A stretch of 33,289 nt of DNA from Patescibacteria group bacterium. GTDB taxonomy: Bacteria > Patescibacteriota > Microgenomatia > UBA1406 > GWC2-37-13. The DNA lies in NCBI GenBank assembly GCA_026416975.1, contig JAOAEC010000008.1, forward strand, positions 1-33,289. Reading direction: 5' to 3'. Of this stretch, positions 1,931 through 27,234 are shown piece by piece (the first letter of the stretch is position 1; every line of letters begins with the position of its first letter). The translations under genes were made by a program, and so were the position numbers. The notes under the pieces were generated by a model. The model was not told the origin of the DNA and did not search any database. It saw only the letters and a program-made list of their open reading frames with translations.

Positions 1931-2038
1931 CCTCTTATCTTACCAAAAAAAACCAAAATTCTCTTATGAACTCTTTAAAAATTTTCTAGCTTTCAATTGC
2001 TATTTTTCCCCGTGATTTAATTTTTACATTTTTAAAAA
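1931..2038. repeat. Direct repeat copy 2: relic of a DUF4143 ATPase 3' end abutting the P-type ATPase stop
   Basis: Minus translation KNVKIKSRGKIAIES* versus KNVKVKSWEKIAIES* in the intact gene. Confidence 0.8.
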
Positions 2039-4075
2039 CTCCTTCACCCCTCTGATTCCAACTAACACCAAGCTTGAAAAACCAATCAAAATGAAAAATG
2101 TTTGCCAATTAATTGGTTGGGTTTTGAAGATTTGTTGTAAAAAAGGTTGATGAAGTAATAGTGGTTGGAGAACAAAGGGAAATATAAAAGCGATAATAAA
2201 GATTGGTTTAAATAAAAGTTTATAGTTTGAAGCAATATGGCGGTGAGAAAGAAAAAGATCAATCAGAATAAACTGCTGGATAAAAATAATCGCTGAAAAA
2301 ACAACGGTCGTATTATTTTTTATAAAAAGAGAGAATCCGGCCAAAATCATTGTTAAAAAACCAACGGAAAAGATATAATGAAAATCAACTTTATCTAATA
2401 TCTCCAATGTTTTTCTTGGTGGTTTTTCAATAATTTTTTTATCATCAGGCGCAAAAGCTAAAGAGATTGCTGGTAAGCCGTCTGTGGCGATATTAATATA
2501 TAAAAGTTGAAGGGGAGTGGGGACAGGAAGTTTAAGAAGAAGAGCGCTGATAATGTAAATTACTTCACCAATATTGCATGATAATAAATATTTAATGGCA
2601 TTTTTTATGTGAATAAAAATATTTCTTCCTTGTTCAATAGCGTCAATTAGAGTGGCAAAGTTATCATCAGTGATGATAATATGAGCCGTATCTTTGGCAA
2701 CATCAGTGCCGGTTTTTCCCATGGCCACGCCGCAGTCAGCCTGTTTTAAAGCTAAAGCGTCATTAACGCCATCGCCAGTGACTGCCACTACTTCGCCTAA
2801 TTTTTGATAAAGTTTAACCAATCGATATTTATCTTCCGGAGAAGTGCGGGCAAAAATTTTTACCTTTGGCAAAATTTTTAAAAGTTCTTGATCTGAATAT
2901 TTGTTCAAAATTTTTCCTGACAAAATATCTTCTCCTTCTTGAATAATCCCAGTTTCAATACCAACGGCTTCAGCAGTTAGTTCATTATCGCCGGTAATCA
3001 TCACCACTTTAATTCCGGCTTTTTTTGCTTTTTCAACCGCTTCTTTGACTTCTACTCTGACTGGATCAGCGATCCCAACAAAACCTAAAAAGATCTGATT
3101 TTCTTCTAAATTTTTATCATCGGTTTTTTTATAAGAAAAAGCAATCATTCGAAGACCTTTTTGGGCAAATTTTTGAAACTCTTTCTCGATCTCCTTTCTT
3201 TTAGTTGGCGTTAAAGGTTTAATCTCTTCACCAATCTGAATAAAATTTGAGATTTCCAAAATTGCCTCTGGCGCTCCTTTAGAAAAAACTAAGTTTTGAG
3301 TTTTGACATTTGAGTTTTGAGCTTTGATACTCATCCTTTTTGTCACTGCTGAAAAAGGAATTTCTTCTTCAATCTGCCATTTTTTTCGTTCTTCCTCATA
3401 GTTTATTCCCAAATCTTTGGCCATTAAAAGCAAAGCACCTTCAGTGGTGTCGCCAATGACATCCATATCGCCATGGTCAACTTTAAAAACCAAAGAAGCA
3501 GTTGAGTTAAGACATGAGTTAAGAAGAATTTTTTGAAAAGGATGATTGTTAATGTGAGGAGGAGAAGAGATATCATACTCTTTTTCATCAAGCCAGATTT
3601 TTTTTACCCGCATCTGATTCGTGGTTAAAGTCCCGGTTTTGTCAGTGGCAACTAATGTTAAAGATCCCATTGTTTCAATCGCATTAAGTTTGCGGACAAT
3701 GGTTTTTCTTTTTGCCATCCGCTCAACACCAATTGAAAGAATAATTGTCATTACCGCCGGCAGTCCTTCAGGAACAGCAGCGACCGCTAAAGAAACTGCC
3801 AAAATAAAACTTTCAACCGTGTTTTTTTCTTTAATAAAAGACAAAAGAAAAACAATCAAAGAGGCAATAATTCCGATGATTCCCAATTGTTTAGTAAAAA
3901 CCTCTAATTTTTTTTGAAGAGGCGTTTTTGCTTCTTTAATTGAGGACAAAGTTTTGGCAATCTGACCAAAACGAGTGTTTGAGCCAGTTTTTGTCACCCG
4001 CATAAACCCTCGACCGCGGGAGACAATGGTGCCGGCGTATAATTGATTGTCCATAATTTTAAATTTAAAATTCAA
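2024..4075 (-). CDS. Cation-transporting P-type ATPase, C-terminal fragment (rest of A-domain, P, N and TM domains)
   Basis: DKTGTLTTNQM, MITGDNELTAEAVG, VAVTGDGVNDALALKQADCGVAMG; starts mid A-domain 'NQLYAGTIVSRGRGFMRVTKTGSNTRFGQIA'. Confidence 0.93.
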   Translation of the reverse strand: MNFKFKIMDNQLYAGTIVSRGRGFMRVTKTGSNTRFGQIAKTLSSIKEAKTPLQKKLEVFTKQLGIIGIIASLIVFLLSFIKEKNTVESFILAVSLAVAAVPEGLPAVMTIILSIGVERMAKRKTIVRKLNAIETMGSLTLVATDKTGTLTTNQMRVKKIWLDEKEYDISSPPHINNHPFQKILLNSCLNSTASLVFKVDHGDMDVIGDTTEGALLLMAKDLGINYEEERKKWQIEEEIPFSAVTKRMSIKAQNSNVKTQNLVFSKGAPEAILEISNFIQIGEEIKPLTPTKRKEIEKEFQKFAQKGLRMIAFSYKKTDDKNLEENQIFLGFVGIADPVRVEVKEAVEKAKKAGIKVVMITGDNELTAEAVGIETGIIQEGEDILSGKILNKYSDQELLKILPKVKIFARTSPEDKYRLVKLYQKLGEVVAVTGDGVNDALALKQADCGVAMGKTGTDVAKDTAHIIITDDNFATLIDAIEQGRNIFIHIKNAIKYLLSCNIGEVIYIISALLLKLPVPTPLQLLYINIATDGLPAISLAFAPDDKKIIEKPPRKTLEILDKVDFHYIFSVGFLTMILAGFSLFIKNNTTVVFSAIIFIQQFILIDLFLSHRHIASNYKLLFKPIFIIAFIFPFVLQPLLLHQPFLQQIFKTQPINWQTFFILIGFSSLVLVGIRGVKEFLKM

Positions 4076-4522
4076 AATGTAAAAATCAAAATGACAATGT
4101 AAAATGTAAAATTTTTTTATTTTTTACCTTTTAATTTTAATAAACTACTTGCTAAAATATTAGCGATTTCATTAACTTCTTTTAAAATTTCATTAGATTG
4201 TTTGACTAAATTTTCTTCATTTACAATGTTTTGAATAATATAAATCCAATATTTGGTTTCATTTGCTGATTTTAAAGCTGTTTCAAAATAATGAATATAG
4301 TCTTTAGTTGAACTTGATGATTTTGCCTCAATTACATTAGCTCCAATTGATGTTGTTGATCGAACTAATTGATCTAATATTGAGTAAAAAATAATGTGTT
4401 TTTTTATTGATTCTGAGAATTTAATAACTTTTATTGATAAATTAATCAATCTTTTTATAAATTCCTTTTTGAATTTTTCTCTGTCATTTTGCATTTTGAT
4501 TTTTGATTTTTGAATTTTTAGT
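4065..4522 (-). mobile_element. IVS-like insertion: four-helix-bundle ORF between complementary AT-rich arms, interrupting the P-type ATPase gene
   Basis: Arms AAAATTCAAAATGTAAAAATCAAAATGACAATGTAAAATG (left, + strand) and reverse complement of right arm AAAAATTCAAAAATCAAAAATCAAAATGCAAAATG; ATPase halves on both sides. Confidence 0.7.
4117..4494 (-). CDS. Four-helix-bundle protein, 23S rRNA-intervening-sequence protein family (PF05635/TIGR02436-like)
   Basis: MQNDREKFKKEFIKRLINLSIKVIKFSESIKKHIIFYSILDQLVRSTTSIGANVIEAKSSSSTKDYIHYFETALKSANETKYWI: characteristic 'QL.RS.TSIGANI.EA' and 'F...L..A..E..YWL'. Confidence 0.92.
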   Translation of the reverse strand: MQNDREKFKKEFIKRLINLSIKVIKFSESIKKHIIFYSILDQLVRSTTSIGANVIEAKSSSSTKDYIHYFETALKSANETKYWIYIIQNIVNEENLVKQSNEILKEVNEIANILASSLLKLKGKK

Positions 4523-5002
4523 TACTGGTAAAGATTCTCCAGTCAATATCGCTTCATTAACCTCTAAATTCATTGCCTGGAGAGCTTCGCCGTCAGCTGG
4601 GATTCTCGTTCCTTCTTCTAAATAAACAATATCACCAGGGACCAAGTATCGGCTATCAATTTCCTGCTCTTTGCCATCGCGGATTACTCGAACTTTAACG
4701 ACCGTCATTTTTTTTAAAGATTTTAAAGATTTTTCTGCCTGATATTCCTGATAAAGGCCAAAAAGAGCATTAAGAATAACAATCGCTAAAATAAAAATAG
4801 CATCTAAGATCTCGCCAATAAAAAAAGAAATTCCTGAAGCGGCAATTAAAAGCAAGATCAAAAAATTGTTAAATTGAGAAATAAAAGACTTTAACAGAGT
4901 AAATTTTTTTTCCTCTTTAATCTCATTAGCGCCATAGGTTTTAAGAAGTTTTTCTACCTGATGGGTAGTTAAAGACAAATTTTTAATTTTTTCCGGGTCC
5001 AT
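4484..5002 (-). CDS. Cation-transporting P-type ATPase, N-terminal fragment ending just after TGES
   Basis: MDPEKIKNLSLTTHQVEKLLKTYGANEI..VPGDIVYLEEGTRIPADGEALQAMNLEVNEAILTGESLPVTKNSKIKNQNAK*. Confidence 0.93.
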   Translation of the reverse strand: MDPEKIKNLSLTTHQVEKLLKTYGANEIKEEKKFTLLKSFISQFNNFLILLLIAASGISFFIGEILDAIFILAIVILNALFGLYQEYQAEKSLKSLKKMTVVKVRVIRDGKEQEIDSRYLVPGDIVYLEEGTRIPADGEALQAMNLEVNEAILTGESLPVTKNSKIKNQNAK

Positions 5003-5228: not shown

Positions 5229-5272
5229 TTGACAAACAATAGTTATTCTATTATCCTGTACATATATGTACA
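5229..5272 (+). promoter_or_regulatory. Promoter TTGACA-N17-TATCCT plus perfect 16-bp palindrome TGTACATATATGTACA overlapping start codon (operator candidate)
   Basis: ttgacaaacaatagttattctattatccTGTACATATATGTACAaaa; ATG at 5266 lies inside the palindrome. Confidence 0.65.
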
Positions 5273-5799
5273 AAATAGATAAATTATTAAAGCAGGATGA
5301 GAAACTTTTTCATACCCAGGATTTACGATTAATCTGGGGGATAAGTAACAAGAATACTTTATATACAACTATTAAGCGTTATATTCAAAAAGGCATTCTT
5401 ATTCCTATTCACAAAGGCTTTTATTCAACTTTGCCTTTAGAGAAAGTTAATCCAGTAAGACTTGGAATCGGCTATCTTCATAGGTTTTCTTATTTAAGCG
5501 GCGAGAGTGTTTTGGTTAAAGAGGGAGTGATTTTTCAAAAAGAAAACTATATTACTTTAATGTCTTCAGTTTCCAAAAAATTCACGTTAGGAAAAAACAG
5601 TTTTTTAGTAAGAAAAATGAAGGATGATTTTTTATACAACGACGGCGGAATTGAGGAAAAAGAAGGAATAAAAACAGCCAGTTTAGAGCGGGCCGTGGCC
5701 GATTTGCTTTATTTTAACCCTAATTATTATTTTGATAATTCAAAGAAAATCAACTGGAAGAAAGTAAAGGAAATTAAAAAAATAGTATTTGGTAGTTAA
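5266..5799 (+). CDS. AbiEi-like antitoxin / transcriptional regulator of type IV toxin-antitoxin system
   Basis: N-terminal wHTH followed by 'GFYSTLPLEKVNPVRLGIGYLHRFSYLSGESVLVKEGVI...IKTASLERAVADLLYFNP'; adjacent AbiEii-like gene. Confidence 0.82.
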   Translation: MYKIDKLLKQDEKLFHTQDLRLIWGISNKNTLYTTIKRYIQKGILIPIHKGFYSTLPLEKVNPVRLGIGYLHRFSYLSGESVLVKEGVIFQKENYITLMSSVSKKFTLGKNSFLVRKMKDDFLYNDGGIEEKEGIKTASLERAVADLLYFNPNYYFDNSKKINWKKVKEIKKIVFGS

Positions 5800-5806
5800 A
5801 AATTAA

Positions 5807-5846
5807 CCGCCTGTAAAAGCTATTGCTTTAAGCGATTGCGGGCAGG
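5807..5846 (-). repeat. 40-nt palindromic REP-like element, copy 3 (inverted, diverged)
   Basis: ccgcctgtaaaagctattgctttaagcgattgcgggcagg flanked by AAAATTAA on both sides. Confidence 0.82.
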
Positions 5847-5857
5847 AAAATTAAAAA

Positions 5858-6586
5858 TTGATAAATATGCTTTTGCCGAAAAAAGAAGATACTTATCATA
5901 AAATCCAGCTTATCAGACTTTTGACTGAGATTTTAGACAGCGAAATCTCAAAAGATATCTATTTTAAAGGCGGAACTGCTGCTACTATGCTTGGTTTTTT
6001 AGACCGGTTTTCCTTAGATTTAGATTTTGATTTGTCAATTGGCGCCGATAAAAAGAAAATCGATAAAGTTTTGCGGATGATTTTCCAAAAACTTGATTTT
6101 AAAATTGAAAAAAAAGCCGGAAAGACTCTTTTTTATGTTTTAAAATATCCATCAAAGCCGGGTTTAAGAAATAGTTTAAAATTAAGCATTGTTGATAAAG
6201 CCTTAAAGTCTAATCAATATGATAGTTTTTATCTGCCTGATGTTGACCGGTTTGCTATTTGCCAGACCAAAGAGACAATGTTTGCTCATAAGTTAGTAGC
6301 AGCGACTGACCGCTACAAAAAATACCAGACGATTGCCGGTCGAGACTTATACGACATTCATTATTTTTTTCTTCAAGGGTATGAGTTTAATAGTAATGTG
6401 ATTATTGAGCGAACAGGCAAAAAACCAAAAGAGTATTTAAAAGAATTAGCTGATTTTATTGAGAAAAAAGTTAATGACAAAATAATTAATGAAGACTTAA
6501 GCTTTTTACTGCCTTATGAGAGATTTAAAACGATAAGAAAAGTTTTAAAAAGGGAAGTGGTGATGATGTTGAGGGGAAGAATATAA
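5858..6586 (+). CDS. Nucleotidyltransferase, AbiEii/AbiGii-like toxin
   Basis: 'IYFKGGTAATMLGFLDRFSLDLDFDL' nucleotidyltransferase motif; 'KETMFAHKLVAATDRYKKYQTIAGRDLYDIHYFF'. Confidence 0.86.
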   Translation: MINMLLPKKEDTYHKIQLIRLLTEILDSEISKDIYFKGGTAATMLGFLDRFSLDLDFDLSIGADKKKIDKVLRMIFQKLDFKIEKKAGKTLFYVLKYPSKPGLRNSLKLSIVDKALKSNQYDSFYLPDVDRFAICQTKETMFAHKLVAATDRYKKYQTIAGRDLYDIHYFFLQGYEFNSNVIIERTGKKPKEYLKELADFIEKKVNDKIINEDLSFLLPYERFKTIRKVLKREVVMMLRGRI

Positions 6587-12414: not shown

Positions 12415-15144
12415 GTGAAAAATAAAGAAAAATGTATTAAAATATTTTTTATGAGTACGATTTTTGGATATTTTTTAGGTTATAAAACTTTAGCGGAAAG
12501 AATTACAGAGTATAATGAAAAAATTAAACAAATTGAGTTTGCTCAAAAAAATCCAAAAATTCCTCCAAAAAAACAAGAAGAAATAATTACCGATATTAAA
12601 AAATATTCAAAAGCGACAATTGAGGATGTTTTTTATCAATTAGACACTTCTTTAGATGGTTTAAGTTTTTATGAGATAAAAAAAAGAATTTTTCAATATG
12701 GTCTAAATGAAGTAGAAGAAATTGAAAAAAACAATTTCTTTACTCGTTTAGGGAAAATTATTTTTAACCCATTAATTCTTTTATTTTTCTTTTTAATTTT
12801 TGTTTCTTATTTAACCCAAGATTATAAAACTGTTTTTGTTATTAGTTTTATGGTTTTAATAAGTGTTGTTTTGCGTTATATTCAAGAAACAAAAGCTTAT
12901 AATTCGGCCGCTGCTTTAAAATCTCGCATCAATACTACCTGTACGGTTATCAGGGGAGGTAAAAAAAGGGAGATTGATTTAAAAGATGTAACCCCTGGTG
13001 ATATTGTTGTTTTGTCCGCTGGTGATATTATTCCGGCTGATTTAAGATTGATTGAGGCAAAAGATCTTTATATTGATCAATCGTTTTTAACTGGTGAATC
13101 AGTGCCGGTGGAAAAAATTACCGATTTTAGTTTAGATGAAACAACTCATGTCATTGACTATAAAAACATCTGTTTTATGGGATCAAGTGTTTCTTCTGGT
13201 TATGGAAAAGGGGTGGTTTTTCAAACAGGAAAAAATACTTATTTTGGTAATTTAACTAAAAATATTAGCGGCAGGCGAACTGAAACAAGTTTTGATAAAG
13301 GAGTTGATAAATTTACCTGGTTGATGATTGCTTTTATGAGTGTGATGGCGCCAACGGTTTTTATTGTTAATGGTTTAACTAAAGACAATTGGTTTGAGGC
13401 TTTTCTATTTGGAATTTCCATTGCTGTTGGTTTGACTCCCGAAATGCTACCAGCAATTTTAACTTTTAACTTATCAAAAGGCACTGTTTCTATGGCAAAG
13501 AAAAAAGTGATTGTAAAACTTTTGAATTCAATGCAAAATTTAGGAGCAATGAATGTTGTCTGCACTGACAAAACCGGCACTTTAACTTTAAATAGAGTTA
13601 CAGTAATTCATAGTCTGGATGGAAATGGAAACGAAAATCCTAAAGTTTTAAAATTTGCTTATATTAACAGTTTTTTTCAAACCGGTTTTAAGAATTTAAT
13701 TGATACAGCTGTAATTTCTGAGGCAAAAAAAAGAAAAATTAATGATTTTATTTCTTCATATAAAAAAATAGATGAGTATCCTTTTGATTTTAAGAGAAAA
13801 AGATTGTCAATTGTTGTTGAAAATGAAAAAAAAGAGAAAATTTTAATCTGTAAAGGTGCGGTTGAGGAGGTGATGTCTGTTTGTCGTTTTTTAGAAACCA
13901 ATCAAAACAAGCAGGTTTTATTAAAAGAAACTGATTTAAATAATATTAAACAATTAAATGAAAACTATGCTAAACAAGGATATCGAACAATGGTTGTTGC
14001 TTATAAAAAGATTTCTGAAAGATATTATGGGCATGTTGATAAAGACGAAAAAGATTTAATATTTTTTGGGATTATTACTCTTCTTGATCCACCAAAGGAA
14101 TCAGCAAAAAAAGCAATAAGAAATCTAAGCGATTTAGGAATTACTGTTAAGATTTTAACCGGTGATAATGAACTGGTGACAAAAAAAATTGCCGCTGATG
14201 TAGGTTTGAACACGGAGAATATTTTATTGGGAGGGCAAATTCAACAAATGAGTGATGAAGAATTAAAAAAAATTATTGATAAAACAACAATCTTTGCTAA
14301 ACTTTCGCCTGAAGATAAAAAAAGGATTGTTAAAATTTTAAGAAAAAAAGGGAATGTGGTTGGATTTTTGGGTGATGGGATCAATGATGCGCCGGCGCTT
14401 CGTGAGGCTGATGTTGGTATATCGGTTGATGGTGGAGTGGATATTGCTAAAGAATCAGCCGATATTATTCTTTTAGAAACAAGTTTATCTGTTTTGGCTG
14501 ATGGGGTGGTTGAGGGAAGAAAAACTTTTGGCAATATTATTAAATATATCAGGATGGGAGCCAGTTCTAATTTTGGTAATATGTTTTCCGTTTTGGGACC
14601 AAGCATATTTTTACCTTTTTTACCAATGAGACCGGCACAAATTTTGGTTAATAATCTTTTATATGATATTTCCCAAACAGCCATTCCTCTTGATAGCGTT
14701 GATGAGGAATTTATGAAAAAACCTCGCCGTTGGCGGGTAAAAGACATTGCTCGTTTTATGATTTTTATTGGACCAATAAGTAGCATCTTTGATTATACGA
14801 CTTTTTTTGTTATGCTTTATGTTTTTAATTGTTGGAATAATCCAGCTCTGTTTCAAACTGGCTGGTTCGTTGAGTCTTTAATCACACAAACCTTAATTAT
14901 TCATGTAATAAGAAGCAAAAAAATCCCTATTCTTCAAACCATGGCTAGTTTACCATTAACCTTAATGACAATATTGATTATTAGTATTGGTGTATTTTTG
15001 GTTAATTCGCCTTTTGGCTATCTTTTTGGTTTTGTTAAACCACCTTTAATTTATTGGCCGATTTTAATATTAATTAATTTAAGTTATGTAGTCTTAACTC
15101 AAATCGTAAAGTACTTTTATATTAAAAAATTCGGTTATTATTAA
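12415..15144 (+). CDS. mgtA: Magnesium-translocating P-type ATPase (MgtA/MgtB-like, P3B); true start may be ATG 12451
   Basis: FLTGESVPVEK, VCTDKTGTLTLNRV, GDGINDAPALREADVGISVDGGVDIAKESADIILL; 'GLTPEMLPAILTFNLSKG', 'RMGASSNFGNMFSVLGPSIFLPFLPM' typical of MgtA. Confidence 0.9.
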   Translation: MKNKEKCIKIFFMSTIFGYFLGYKTLAERITEYNEKIKQIEFAQKNPKIPPKKQEEIITDIKKYSKATIEDVFYQLDTSLDGLSFYEIKKRIFQYGLNEVEEIEKNNFFTRLGKIIFNPLILLFFFLIFVSYLTQDYKTVFVISFMVLISVVLRYIQETKAYNSAAALKSRINTTCTVIRGGKKREIDLKDVTPGDIVVLSAGDIIPADLRLIEAKDLYIDQSFLTGESVPVEKITDFSLDETTHVIDYKNICFMGSSVSSGYGKGVVFQTGKNTYFGNLTKNISGRRTETSFDKGVDKFTWLMIAFMSVMAPTVFIVNGLTKDNWFEAFLFGISIAVGLTPEMLPAILTFNLSKGTVSMAKKKVIVKLLNSMQNLGAMNVVCTDKTGTLTLNRVTVIHSLDGNGNENPKVLKFAYINSFFQTGFKNLIDTAVISEAKKRKINDFISSYKKIDEYPFDFKRKRLSIVVENEKKEKILICKGAVEEVMSVCRFLETNQNKQVLLKETDLNNIKQLNENYAKQGYRTMVVAYKKISERYYGHVDKDEKDLIFFGIITLLDPPKESAKKAIRNLSDLGITVKILTGDNELVTKKIAADVGLNTENILLGGQIQQMSDEELKKIIDKTTIFAKLSPEDKKRIVKILRKKGNVVGFLGDGINDAPALREADVGISVDGGVDIAKESADIILLETSLSVLADGVVEGRKTFGNIIKYIRMGASSNFGNMFSVLGPSIFLPFLPMRPAQILVNNLLYDISQTAIPLDSVDEEFMKKPRRWRVKDIARFMIFIGPISSIFDYTTFFVMLYVFNCWNNPALFQTGWFVESLITQTLIIHVIRSKKIPILQTMASLPLTLMTILIISIGVFLVNSPFGYLFGFVKPPLIYWPILILINLSYVVLTQIVKYFYIKKFGYY

Positions 15145-24216: not shown

Positions 24217-24456
24217 TTAATTATTTCTTGCACTATATTCTATTCTTTTAGGACATGTTGCTTGTTGATATGTTTCTTTACAAAGGCACATACGAGGATG
24301 TTTTGAGTTAGCTAACCCACAAAAACCTACTAAAAGATCTCCATAAATTTTTTTATACTTTTCAGCAAGTATTTCAAATGCTCCATTTTCTCCATATCTT
24401 TCAACTGTTTCTTCTGGCGTTATTAAATGTACACATCCTTCACATCCATTTTTCAT
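24217..24456 (-). CDS. Small cysteine-rich hypothetical protein (start at MKNGCEGC; upstream codons in ORF track are promoter)
   Basis: MKNGCEGCVHLITPEETVERYGENGAFEILAEKYKKIYGDLLVGFCGLANSKHPRMCLCKETYQQATCPKRIEYSARNN; six Cys. Confidence 0.68.
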   Translation of the reverse strand: MKNGCEGCVHLITPEETVERYGENGAFEILAEKYKKIYGDLLVGFCGLANSKHPRMCLCKETYQQATCPKRIEYSARNN

Positions 24457-24466
24457 ATTATAGGAT

Positions 24467-24489
24467 ATTATACTTCTTCTTCTTGTCAA
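24467..24489 (-). promoter_or_regulatory. GAA-spacer promoter: TTGACA-(11 nt)-TATAAT
   Basis: Minus: TTGACAAGAAGAAGAAGTATAATATCCTATAATATGAAAAATGG. Confidence 0.6.
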
Positions 24490-24519
24490 AAGAAAGTTTT
24501 TATTTTAAAATTGAATGAT

Positions 24520-27234
24520 ATGATTGACAAATATCAACCGCAGGAATTTGAAAAAAAATGGGTGGAGATTTGGGAGAAAGAAAAAACTTATCAAACTCGA
24601 AAACTCGTTAACTTGTCAACTCAAAAACCTAAACAATATGTTTTATCAATGTTTCCCTATCTGTCTGGTGTTGGTCTTCATGTTGGCCATGTGCGAATTT
24701 ACACTGGCACTGATGTTTTAGCCCGTTTTTTTAGGATGAATGGTTATCCAGTTCTTCATCCGATGGGCTGGGATGCTTTTGGACTACCAGCTGAAAACGC
24801 AGCCATAAAAGCTAAAAAAAATCCAATGGATATGGTGCCGGAGAATATCAAAAATTTTAAGCGCCAGATGAAGATGCTTGGATTTTCTTATGATTGGGAA
24901 AAAGAATTTTCGACAACCGACCCAGAATATTATCGATGGACGCAGTGGCTTTTTATCCAGTTTTTTAAAATGGGTCTTTTGTATAAAAAAGAAATACCAG
25001 TTTATTACTGCCCATCTTGTAAAACTGGTTTGGCAGAAGAGGAAGTTTTGCCAGACGGCACTCATGAACGCTGTGGCAAACCAATCACCAGAAAAACTCT
25101 TCCTCAATGGCTTTTTAAGATTACTTCTTATGCTGATAAACTTTTGGAAGATCTAAAAGATTTAGACTGGCCTGAAGGAATTTTGGAGATGCAAAAAAAC
25201 TGGATTGGAAAAAGCGAAGGAACGGAAATTAAATTCGAAATTCTAAATCCTAAATCCGAAACAAATTCAAAATCAAAAATTAAAAATTCTAAACAATATA
25301 TTCGGGTTTTTACAACTAGGGCTGATACTTTATTTGGAGTAACTGCTTTGGTGGTGGCGCCGGAGCATTGGTTAATTGATGAAATCCTAAATCCTAAATC
25401 CGAAATCCTAAACAAATCCCAAATCTCAAATTCTAAAATAGAAGAAATTAAAAAATATGTTGAAGAAGCAAAAAGAAAGCTAGATTTGGCAAGAACTGAT
25501 TTAGCAAAAGAAAAAACCGGGGTTGATACTGGACTAAAAGCTGTTCATCCTTTAACTGAAGAAAAAATTCCCATTTGGGTAGCTGATTATGTGATTGGTT
25601 GGTATGGCGAAGGAGCAGTGATGGTGGTGCCTGGACATGATGAACGAGATTATGAGTTTGCGAAAAAATTTAATTTACCAATAAAACAAGTAATAATAAA
25701 CGCAAAACGCAATCCGCCAACTGGCGGACAAAACTCAAAACTAAATCAAAACTTAAGCAAAGCTTTTACTGATTATGGAATTTTGATAAATTCTGGTGAG
25801 TTTTCAGGATTGACTTCAAAAGAAGCCATAGAAAAAATAACAGAAAAATTACAATCGTTAAATTTAGGTCAAAAAAAAATAACTTATAAACTTCGCGATT
25901 GGATTTTTTCAAGACAACGCTATTGGGGTGAGCCGATACCGATGATTTTTTGCGCAAATTGCGCAAAAAATCAAGCTCAAAATTCAAAGTTCAAAGTTCA
26001 AAATAAAATGTATGGTTGGTTTCCTGTTTCAGAAAATGAGCTACCTTTAAAACTCCCTTATATCAAATCATACGAACCAACTGAGACCGGCGAGTCACCT
26101 CTGGCAAAAATTTCTGAGTTTGTTAATACTACCTGTCCAAACTGCGGTGGACCGGCCAAAAGAGAGACAGACACAATGCCAAACTGGGCTGGCTCCTGTT
26201 GGTACTTTTTAGCTTTTGCTTTTTCAAAAGCTTTAAATTCTAAATCCAAAATTCCAAATTCTAAACAATCTCAAAATTCTAATGACAAAAATTCAAAAAG
26301 TTTTGAAAATTTAAATTTTAAAAATTCGGATTTATTTAGGATTTGGAATTTAGAGTTTAGTGCTTCATTAAAACATTGGCTTCCGGTTGACTGGTATTTG
26401 GGAGGAGCAGAACATGCAGTTTTACATCTTTTGTATTCCCGCTTTTGGGTGAAAGCTTTGTATGATTTGGGGCTACTTGATTTTAAAGAACCGTTTTTAA
26501 GGTTAAGAAATGTTGGTATGGTTTTGGCTGAGGATCATCGGAAAATGAGCAAAAGTTTTGGCAATGTCATTAATCCTGATGATGTAGTTGCTGAGTATGG
26601 CGCTGATGCTTTGCGTCTTTATGAGATGTTTATGGCACCATTTTCATCTGAGATTGCCTGGTCAACAAAAGCTTTGCAGGGTTGTTATCGGTTTTTAAAA
26701 AGAGTCTGGGAGACATATCAAAAGTTAGAAGTTAAAAATCAAAAGTTAAAAGTTGAAGAAGATAAAGAGTTAGTGGCGAAATTAAACAAAACTATTAAAA
26801 AAGTGACTGAGGATATTGGACAGATTAAATTTAATACTGCTATTGCTTCAATGATGGAATTTTTAAATGAATATGAAAAAAAACCGCAAGAATTATCAAA
26901 AGAAAACGCAAAAAAGTTTTTGCAGATTTTAGCGCCGTTTGCGCCGTTTTTAACTGAGGAGATCTGGAGAGAAGTTTTTGGAGAAAAAGAGTCGATTCAT
27001 TTATCAAAATGGCCTCAGGCTGAAGAGGTAGAGGAGAGCGAGATTATTATTCCGGTGCAGGTGAATGGAAAATTAAGGGGTACAATAAAAGTCAAAAGTC
27101 AAAAGTCAAAAGTCAAAAGTTATATTGAAGCGGAGGTTCTTAAACAAGAAAAAATAAAAAAATATCTTCAAGGAAAAAAATACAAGATGATTTATGTTGA
27201 AGGAAAGGTGGTGAATTTGGTGGTTGGAAGTTAA
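24520..27234 (+). CDS. leuS: Leucyl-tRNA synthetase (start at MIDKYQPQEF)
   Basis: 'YLSGVGLHVGHVRIYTGTDVLARFFRMNGYPVLHPMGWDAFGLPAENAA', 'WIGKSEG', 'HRKMSKSFGNVINPDD'. Confidence 0.96.
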   Translation: MIDKYQPQEFEKKWVEIWEKEKTYQTRKLVNLSTQKPKQYVLSMFPYLSGVGLHVGHVRIYTGTDVLARFFRMNGYPVLHPMGWDAFGLPAENAAIKAKKNPMDMVPENIKNFKRQMKMLGFSYDWEKEFSTTDPEYYRWTQWLFIQFFKMGLLYKKEIPVYYCPSCKTGLAEEEVLPDGTHERCGKPITRKTLPQWLFKITSYADKLLEDLKDLDWPEGILEMQKNWIGKSEGTEIKFEILNPKSETNSKSKIKNSKQYIRVFTTRADTLFGVTALVVAPEHWLIDEILNPKSEILNKSQISNSKIEEIKKYVEEAKRKLDLARTDLAKEKTGVDTGLKAVHPLTEEKIPIWVADYVIGWYGEGAVMVVPGHDERDYEFAKKFNLPIKQVIINAKRNPPTGGQNSKLNQNLSKAFTDYGILINSGEFSGLTSKEAIEKITEKLQSLNLGQKKITYKLRDWIFSRQRYWGEPIPMIFCANCAKNQAQNSKFKVQNKMYGWFPVSENELPLKLPYIKSYEPTETGESPLAKISEFVNTTCPNCGGPAKRETDTMPNWAGSCWYFLAFAFSKALNSKSKIPNSKQSQNSNDKNSKSFENLNFKNSDLFRIWNLEFSASLKHWLPVDWYLGGAEHAVLHLLYSRFWVKALYDLGLLDFKEPFLRLRNVGMVLAEDHRKMSKSFGNVINPDDVVAEYGADALRLYEMFMAPFSSEIAWSTKALQGCYRFLKRVWETYQKLEVKNQKLKVEEDKELVAKLNKTIKKVTEDIGQIKFNTAIASMMEFLNEYEKKPQELSKENAKKFLQILAPFAPFLTEEIWREVFGEKESIHLSKWPQAEEVEESEIIIPVQVNGKLRGTIKVKSQKSKVKSYIEAEVLKQEKIKKYLQGKKYKMIYVEGKVVNLVVGS
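25234..25300. repeat. In-frame heptad-repeat insert 1 in leuS
   Basis: ttcgaaattctaaatcctaaatccgaaacaaattcaaaatcaaaaattaaaaattctaaacaa (FEILNPKSETNSKSKIKNSKQ). Confidence 0.85.
25381..25440. repeat. In-frame heptad-repeat insert 2 in leuS
   Basis: gaaatcctaaatcctaaatccgaaatcctaaacaaatcccaaatctcaaattctaaaata (EILNPKSEILNKSQISNSKI). Confidence 0.88.
25697..25760. repeat. In-frame insert 3 in leuS with hairpin TCCGCCA-AC-TGGCGGA
   Basis: aataaacgcaaaacgcaatccgccaactggcggacaaaactcaaaactaaatcaaaactt (NAKRNPPTGGQNSKLNQNL). Confidence 0.8.
25944..25972. repeat. Perfect 29-nt palindrome in leuS (14-bp arms, 1-nt centre)
   Basis: GATTTTTTGCGCAA A TTGCGCAAAAAATC. Confidence 0.95.
26230..26365. repeat. 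In-frame insert in leuS with inverted heptad arms
   Basis: taaattctaaatccaaaattccaaattctaaacaa ... ttcggatttatttaggatttggaatttagagttta. Confidence 0.8.
27088..27122. repeat. Tandem heptamer GTCAAAA in leuS C-terminus
   Basis: aaagtcaaaagtcaaaagtcaaaagtcaaaagtt (IKVKSQKSKVKS). Confidence 0.92.

Follow-up and report, generated by a model that had tools for sequence, protein, structure and literature searches.

A PF05635 hairpin element of a mobile family lies inside a P-type ATPase gene of a Patescibacteria genome

Intervening sequences (IVSs) have so far been studied as rRNA oddities, and Rickettsia palindromic elements (RPEs) are selfish palindromic inserts in protein genes. IVSs of bacterial 23S rRNA from Coxiella and Leptospira carry an S23p/PF05635 ORF and are cut by RNase III with religation absent (PMC4990558), and PF05635 has also been described in CPR 16S and 23S rRNA inserts (PMC11270868). 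The Avd proteins of diversity-generating retroelements are four-helix-bundle relatives of S23p (PMC10053308); no reverse transcriptase was found among the element neighbours scanned with Pfam in the present study. For Beggiatoaceae, the available text of one report describes TAACTGA heptanucleotide arrays that are intergenic and lie just upstream of start codons (PMC4679880). A literature search whose scope mostly excluded subscription journals turned up no account of PF05635 hairpin elements in places other than rRNA.

The window, meaning the whole stretch of DNA that was analysed, is 33,289 nt of contig JAOAEC010000008.1 (GCA_026416975.1; Patescibacteriota; Microgenomatia; UBA1406; GWC2-37-13). 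It carries an element (Table 1) that resembles the 23S rRNA IVSs in its PF05635 ORF, complementary ends and sense orientation, and members of its family were found within 16S (L213) and 23S (L220) rRNA, both with heptad arms. It differs from those IVSs in that the window copy interrupts a P-type ATPase gene rather than an rRNA gene, while the surveyed relatives lie mostly between protein genes and the arms are arrays of ~7-nt repeats. The Beggiatoaceae arrays are similar in having a period of 7 and in ending near start codons, but they are mostly direct repeats and the available text mentions neither an IVP ORF nor a complementary arm (PMC4679880). In one Patescibacteria class, PF05635 proteins flanked by complementary heptad arms are widespread at gene junctions as a mobile family, with recent transposition visible and one copy inside a pump gene. 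This family offers a tractable setting for the role of S23p and for IVS movement, and the window copy provides a natural experiment on whether a P-type ATPase can function with its A domain cut.

Table 1. Features of the interrupted ATPase gene and of the element within it (window positions).
Feature	Position	Strand	Evidence or remark
ATPase N-terminal piece	4484..5002	-	PF00690, PF00122 profile 2-66
ATPase C-terminal piece	2024..4075	-	PF00122 67-181, PF00702, PF13246, PF00689; alignment
Whole element (left arm, IVP ORF, right arm)	4055..4514	-	Homology to two G138 copies; uninterrupted orthologues
Left arm	4485..4518	-	Heptad-like AAAATTC/AAAAATC/AAAATGC; holds IVP start codon
Four-helix-bundle IVP (S23p-like) ORF, 125 aa	4117..4494	-	PF05635 E 2e-17; PDB 2rld E 5e-11
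Right arm	4067..4099	-	Complementary to left arm
Heptad array in ATPase N-domain loop (AQNSNVKTQN)	3287..3331	-	In frame; length-variable site in relatives

A sequence-only reading of the window had described three ORFs at this locus, with a PF05635-type four-helix bundle between two ATPase halves and the bundle ATG overlapping the N-half stop. The coordinates and frames of this layout, all on the minus strand, were confirmed, as were the nature of the bundle (by its profile and structure matches) and the overlap of the IVP ATG with the N-half TGA (ATGCAAAATGA). The N-terminal piece contains Cation_ATPase_N and the first third of the A domain, and ends with TGES(LPVTKN), 9 arm-encoded residues and then the TGA at 4486-4484, which shuts the host frame in the ORF reading of the minus strand. 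The C-terminal piece contains the remaining A domain, DKTGT, the N and P domains and the TM domain, and likely starts at the ATG at 4054, which is absent from uninterrupted relatives.

PF00122 is divided between the two pieces with zero profile positions lost (Pfam). Four relatives, 75–81% identical, carry an uninterrupted ATPase (L005/G021 and, from three Patescibacteria MAGs, L064, L065 and L066; with the C-half as query, identity was 81% for the G021 orthologue and 81, 78 and 76% for those of the MAGs). At the insertion site these orthologues have loops of the K-x(4-6)-(L/I/V)(Y/F)AGT type (KNLSDANLLYAGT, KNKNDQLYAGT, KNLNNENLVFAGT and KATSDKIFAGT) whose length differs between relatives in the alignment, and the window reads KN-[element]-(M)DNQLYAGT, with 0–3 residues lost in comparison to them. 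The earlier suggestion that little ATPase sequence is missing was borne out by the intact profile and by this comparison with uninterrupted alleles, in which large missing segments were not seen. Across ~830 aligned ATPase codons there were zero stops, frameshifts or lost motifs. In the ATPase tree the branch leading to the window gene was of ordinary length (0.144, with the four relatives at 0.08–0.20), and a codon model gave an omega of 0.037 on the window branch versus 0.026 elsewhere (2dlnL 1.3, not significant), with synonymous sites saturated. Branch length and omega show that strong decay of the ATPase is absent and nothing beyond that. A second P-type ATPase in the window (12415-15144, +) is uninterrupted and ~32% identical to the split one. 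A two-gene pair (5266-6586, +) adjoins the split ATPase; its second gene encodes an AbiEii-type nucleotidyl transferase (PF08843) and the pair possibly forms a type IV toxin-antitoxin system.

Homology to the G138 copies gives an element length of 460 nt, or 463 nt with the ATG, neither of which is a multiple of 3. Its left end is uncertain by a few nt, and its right end by the ATG (4052-4054). Complementarity of the flanks over about 35 nt had been proposed, and we found arms of 34 nt upstream and 33 nt downstream with a local complementarity score of 41 (z 7.5 against dinucleotide shuffles), better than all 100 shuffles, in comparison to a median arm score of 17 across 142 control ORFs. On repetition for the window element (L274), 0/60 plain shuffles were as good. 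Folding of 501 nt gave a z of -2.2, and 0/100 shuffles were equally stable. The element is in sense orientation in the ATPase gene. Rfam over the whole window gave only two tRNAs and no group I or group II intron. A transposase-type insertion sequence was rejected: Pfam detected only the PF05635 ORF within the element, and no target-site duplication was evident by eye at the element copies compared. An RPE-like in-frame element was also rejected for the ATPase copy, which, unlike RPEs, carries an ORF of its own in a frame other than the host's and closes the host frame at the TGA. A scan of viral contigs with the window IVP protein found no relatives.

PF05635 genes were present in 116 of 144 related genomes, and our survey within the host's class comprised ~224 PF05635 loci (136 with usable flanks, then 28, then 60). 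Arms were better than all 100 shuffles in 100 of the 136 first-survey elements and better than all plain shuffles in 24/28 and 53/60 of the later sets, while only 3 of 142 control ORFs had arms beating all shuffles (60 per control). The best arm period was 7 or 14 in 64 of 91 elements, and arm sequences differed greatly from element to element. The usual location was between co-directional genes with the element in the same orientation, a modest bias (++ 78 and -- 4, with controls at 74 and 14; p 0.02). At the thyA-dfrA junction the genes mostly overlap or lie close together where the element is absent, and the arrangement is stop-[arm-IVP-arm]-start where it is present. A single junction was occupied by sister IVPs in some cases and by unrelated IVPs in others, and this suggests long residence together with repeated arrival.

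An IVP element was found exactly between thyA and dfrA in L148, L165, L051, L161 and L147, and some proteins downstream of thyA-dfrA elements have arm-encoded N-termini such as MIHNT. The DHFR encoded by dfrA of L051 has ~45 extra residues, inserted in frame and without heptad-like character, and the match was also gapped for the DHFR of G005 and G026. The host genome has two further IVP elements with arm periods of 7 and 10 (L001; G000:C8), and the first of these host-genome junctions is also occupied by an IVP in G060 (L282).

Two G138 copies within one genome were 97.1% identical over 444 bp, with abrupt ends and unrelated surroundings, and L212 and L215, from two species, were 89.8% identical over 451 bp, again in unrelated surroundings. 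The PF05635 hairpin elements are therefore a mobile family, the near-identical copies being those of relatives rather than of the window element. Nearest to the window IVP were the G138 copies, at 59%, from another family of the same class. The window element and the G138 copies share the ends TTCAAAA... and ...CATTTTGATTTTT. The proposal that an IVS-like element had moved into a protein gene is supported: the host gene lost almost no sequence, and relatives are mobile and also found in rRNA genes. Among the ~224 elements a split protein gene was found only in the window, by a test that looked for elements whose two neighbouring ORFs match consecutive stretches of the same protein. This test covered the 124 of 166 places, and the 41 of 60, for which the local protein set contained homologues, and a split gene without such a homologue would escape it. 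The idea that PF05635 ORFs might be met inside coding genes elsewhere thus led to many elements but to no further split gene.

We consider it probable that a mobile copy was inserted and stays in the RNA, and an element that is not removed from RNA leaves an ATPase that is either made in two pieces or inactivated; on present comparisons the gene is most likely a split or inactivated one, read as three ORFs. The copy landed in sense in the length-variable A-domain loop just past TGES of this P2-type ATPase, at a cost of 0–3 codons to the host, and would be retained in the RNA. Ribosomes from the ATPase start would then enter the left arm, read 9 codons and halt at the TGA, where the overlapping ATG of the IVP ORF could allow translational coupling, and the C-half could initiate at ATG 4054, where the element ends on the right and the codon follows an A/T-rich leader similar to those of native genes. 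The arms may close into a hairpin, with a possible RNase III cut as in known IVSs. A Shine-Dalgarno motif was present in only 1 of 23 window genes and A/T-rich leaders precede the starts, ATG 4054 included, so that this ATG would be no worse than other starts and the C-half plausibly initiates there.

The fate of the ATPase itself can be interpreted in two ways. Simple disruption, in which the insertion is recent and inactivated an ATPase whose pieces have yet to decay, is a serious candidate to which we give somewhat less than an even chance; one split gene among ~224 elements would be expected if most insertions of this kind disappear, and the intact second ATPase may make the loss tolerable. 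The absence of stops, frameshifts and motif loss over ~830 codons, the ordinary branch and the low omega count against disruption, although missing decay is weak evidence because the insertion may be recent. Alternatively, both pieces could be translated and assembled into a working pump, cut in a flexible A-domain loop, which we regard as a real prospect, if one short of even probability; it is consistent with the variable length of this loop among relatives, with an ATG that follows a native-like leader at the element's right end and with the undecayed ATPase sequence. The A domain of P-type ATPases moves as one unit in the pump cycle, however, and a cut through it may do harm. The locus comes from a single MAG, yet an assembly or binning artefact is extremely improbable, as the flanks come from neighbouring portions of a single gene, at a site 4 kb into a 33-kb contig, and the element ends are homologous to independent copies.

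Excision of the element at the RNA level with rejoining of the flanks would yield one ATPase mRNA and make the element an intron-like IVS, and the sequence-only reading had offered this as an outcome on the grounds that both halves share one frame. The difference of 927 between 5002 and 4075 is correct, but it was rejected as evidence because a shared frame arises by chance in 1/3 of cases and splicing has no need of it. Arms that pair and draw the ends together, intact ATPase pieces on which selection is not relaxed, and the sense orientation are all compatible with excision. Against these stand the absence of an Rfam intron family from the window, an element length set by homology that is not a multiple of 3 (though a shift of 1–2 nt would suffice) and the lack of religation in known IVSs (PMC4990558, PMC11270868). 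An RNase III gene is present in the host genome and the RtcB ligase was not found there, an absence that is weak given a genome 78% complete. No other protein gene was found to contain a related element, and a sole interruption among ~224 elements would be odd for a splicing element. The heptad inserts kept in frame in LeuRS (below) also argue against removal, as nothing would require an excised insert to preserve the reading frame. Taken together, RNA-level excision and religation is not supported, and we hold it to be very unlikely.

Within the preferred reading of an element retained in RNA, we tentatively suggest that the element brings its own stop on the left and its own start codon on the right and so could turn one gene into two translated pieces around the IVP. 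It is likewise possible, though doubtful, that the arm heptads would supply both codons, with the element landing between or inside operon genes. Hints of an own start codon are the right-end ATG in the window, ATTATG at the right end of one G138 copy and the MIHNT... N-termini.

Heptad arrays also occur apart from IVP elements. The LeuRS gene of the window (24427-27234, +) encodes several in-frame peptides from heptad arrays, and includes a complementary heptad pair without an IVP (26227-26269 / 26334-26368) that is in frame, as if an IVP-less heptad hairpin were translated; at the LeuRS heptad sites relatives have other inserts or none. This IVP-less hairpin, kept in frame, is the feature that resembles RPEs. 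Period-7 arrays numbered 23 in the 33-kb window versus ~0.5 in block-shuffled sequence, and their density was 2–6 per 10 kb in several related contigs, with none in most of the distant taxa. At G020:C2:36460-38041 (L304), LeuRS appears as two pieces that overlap, one of which contains a TAA.
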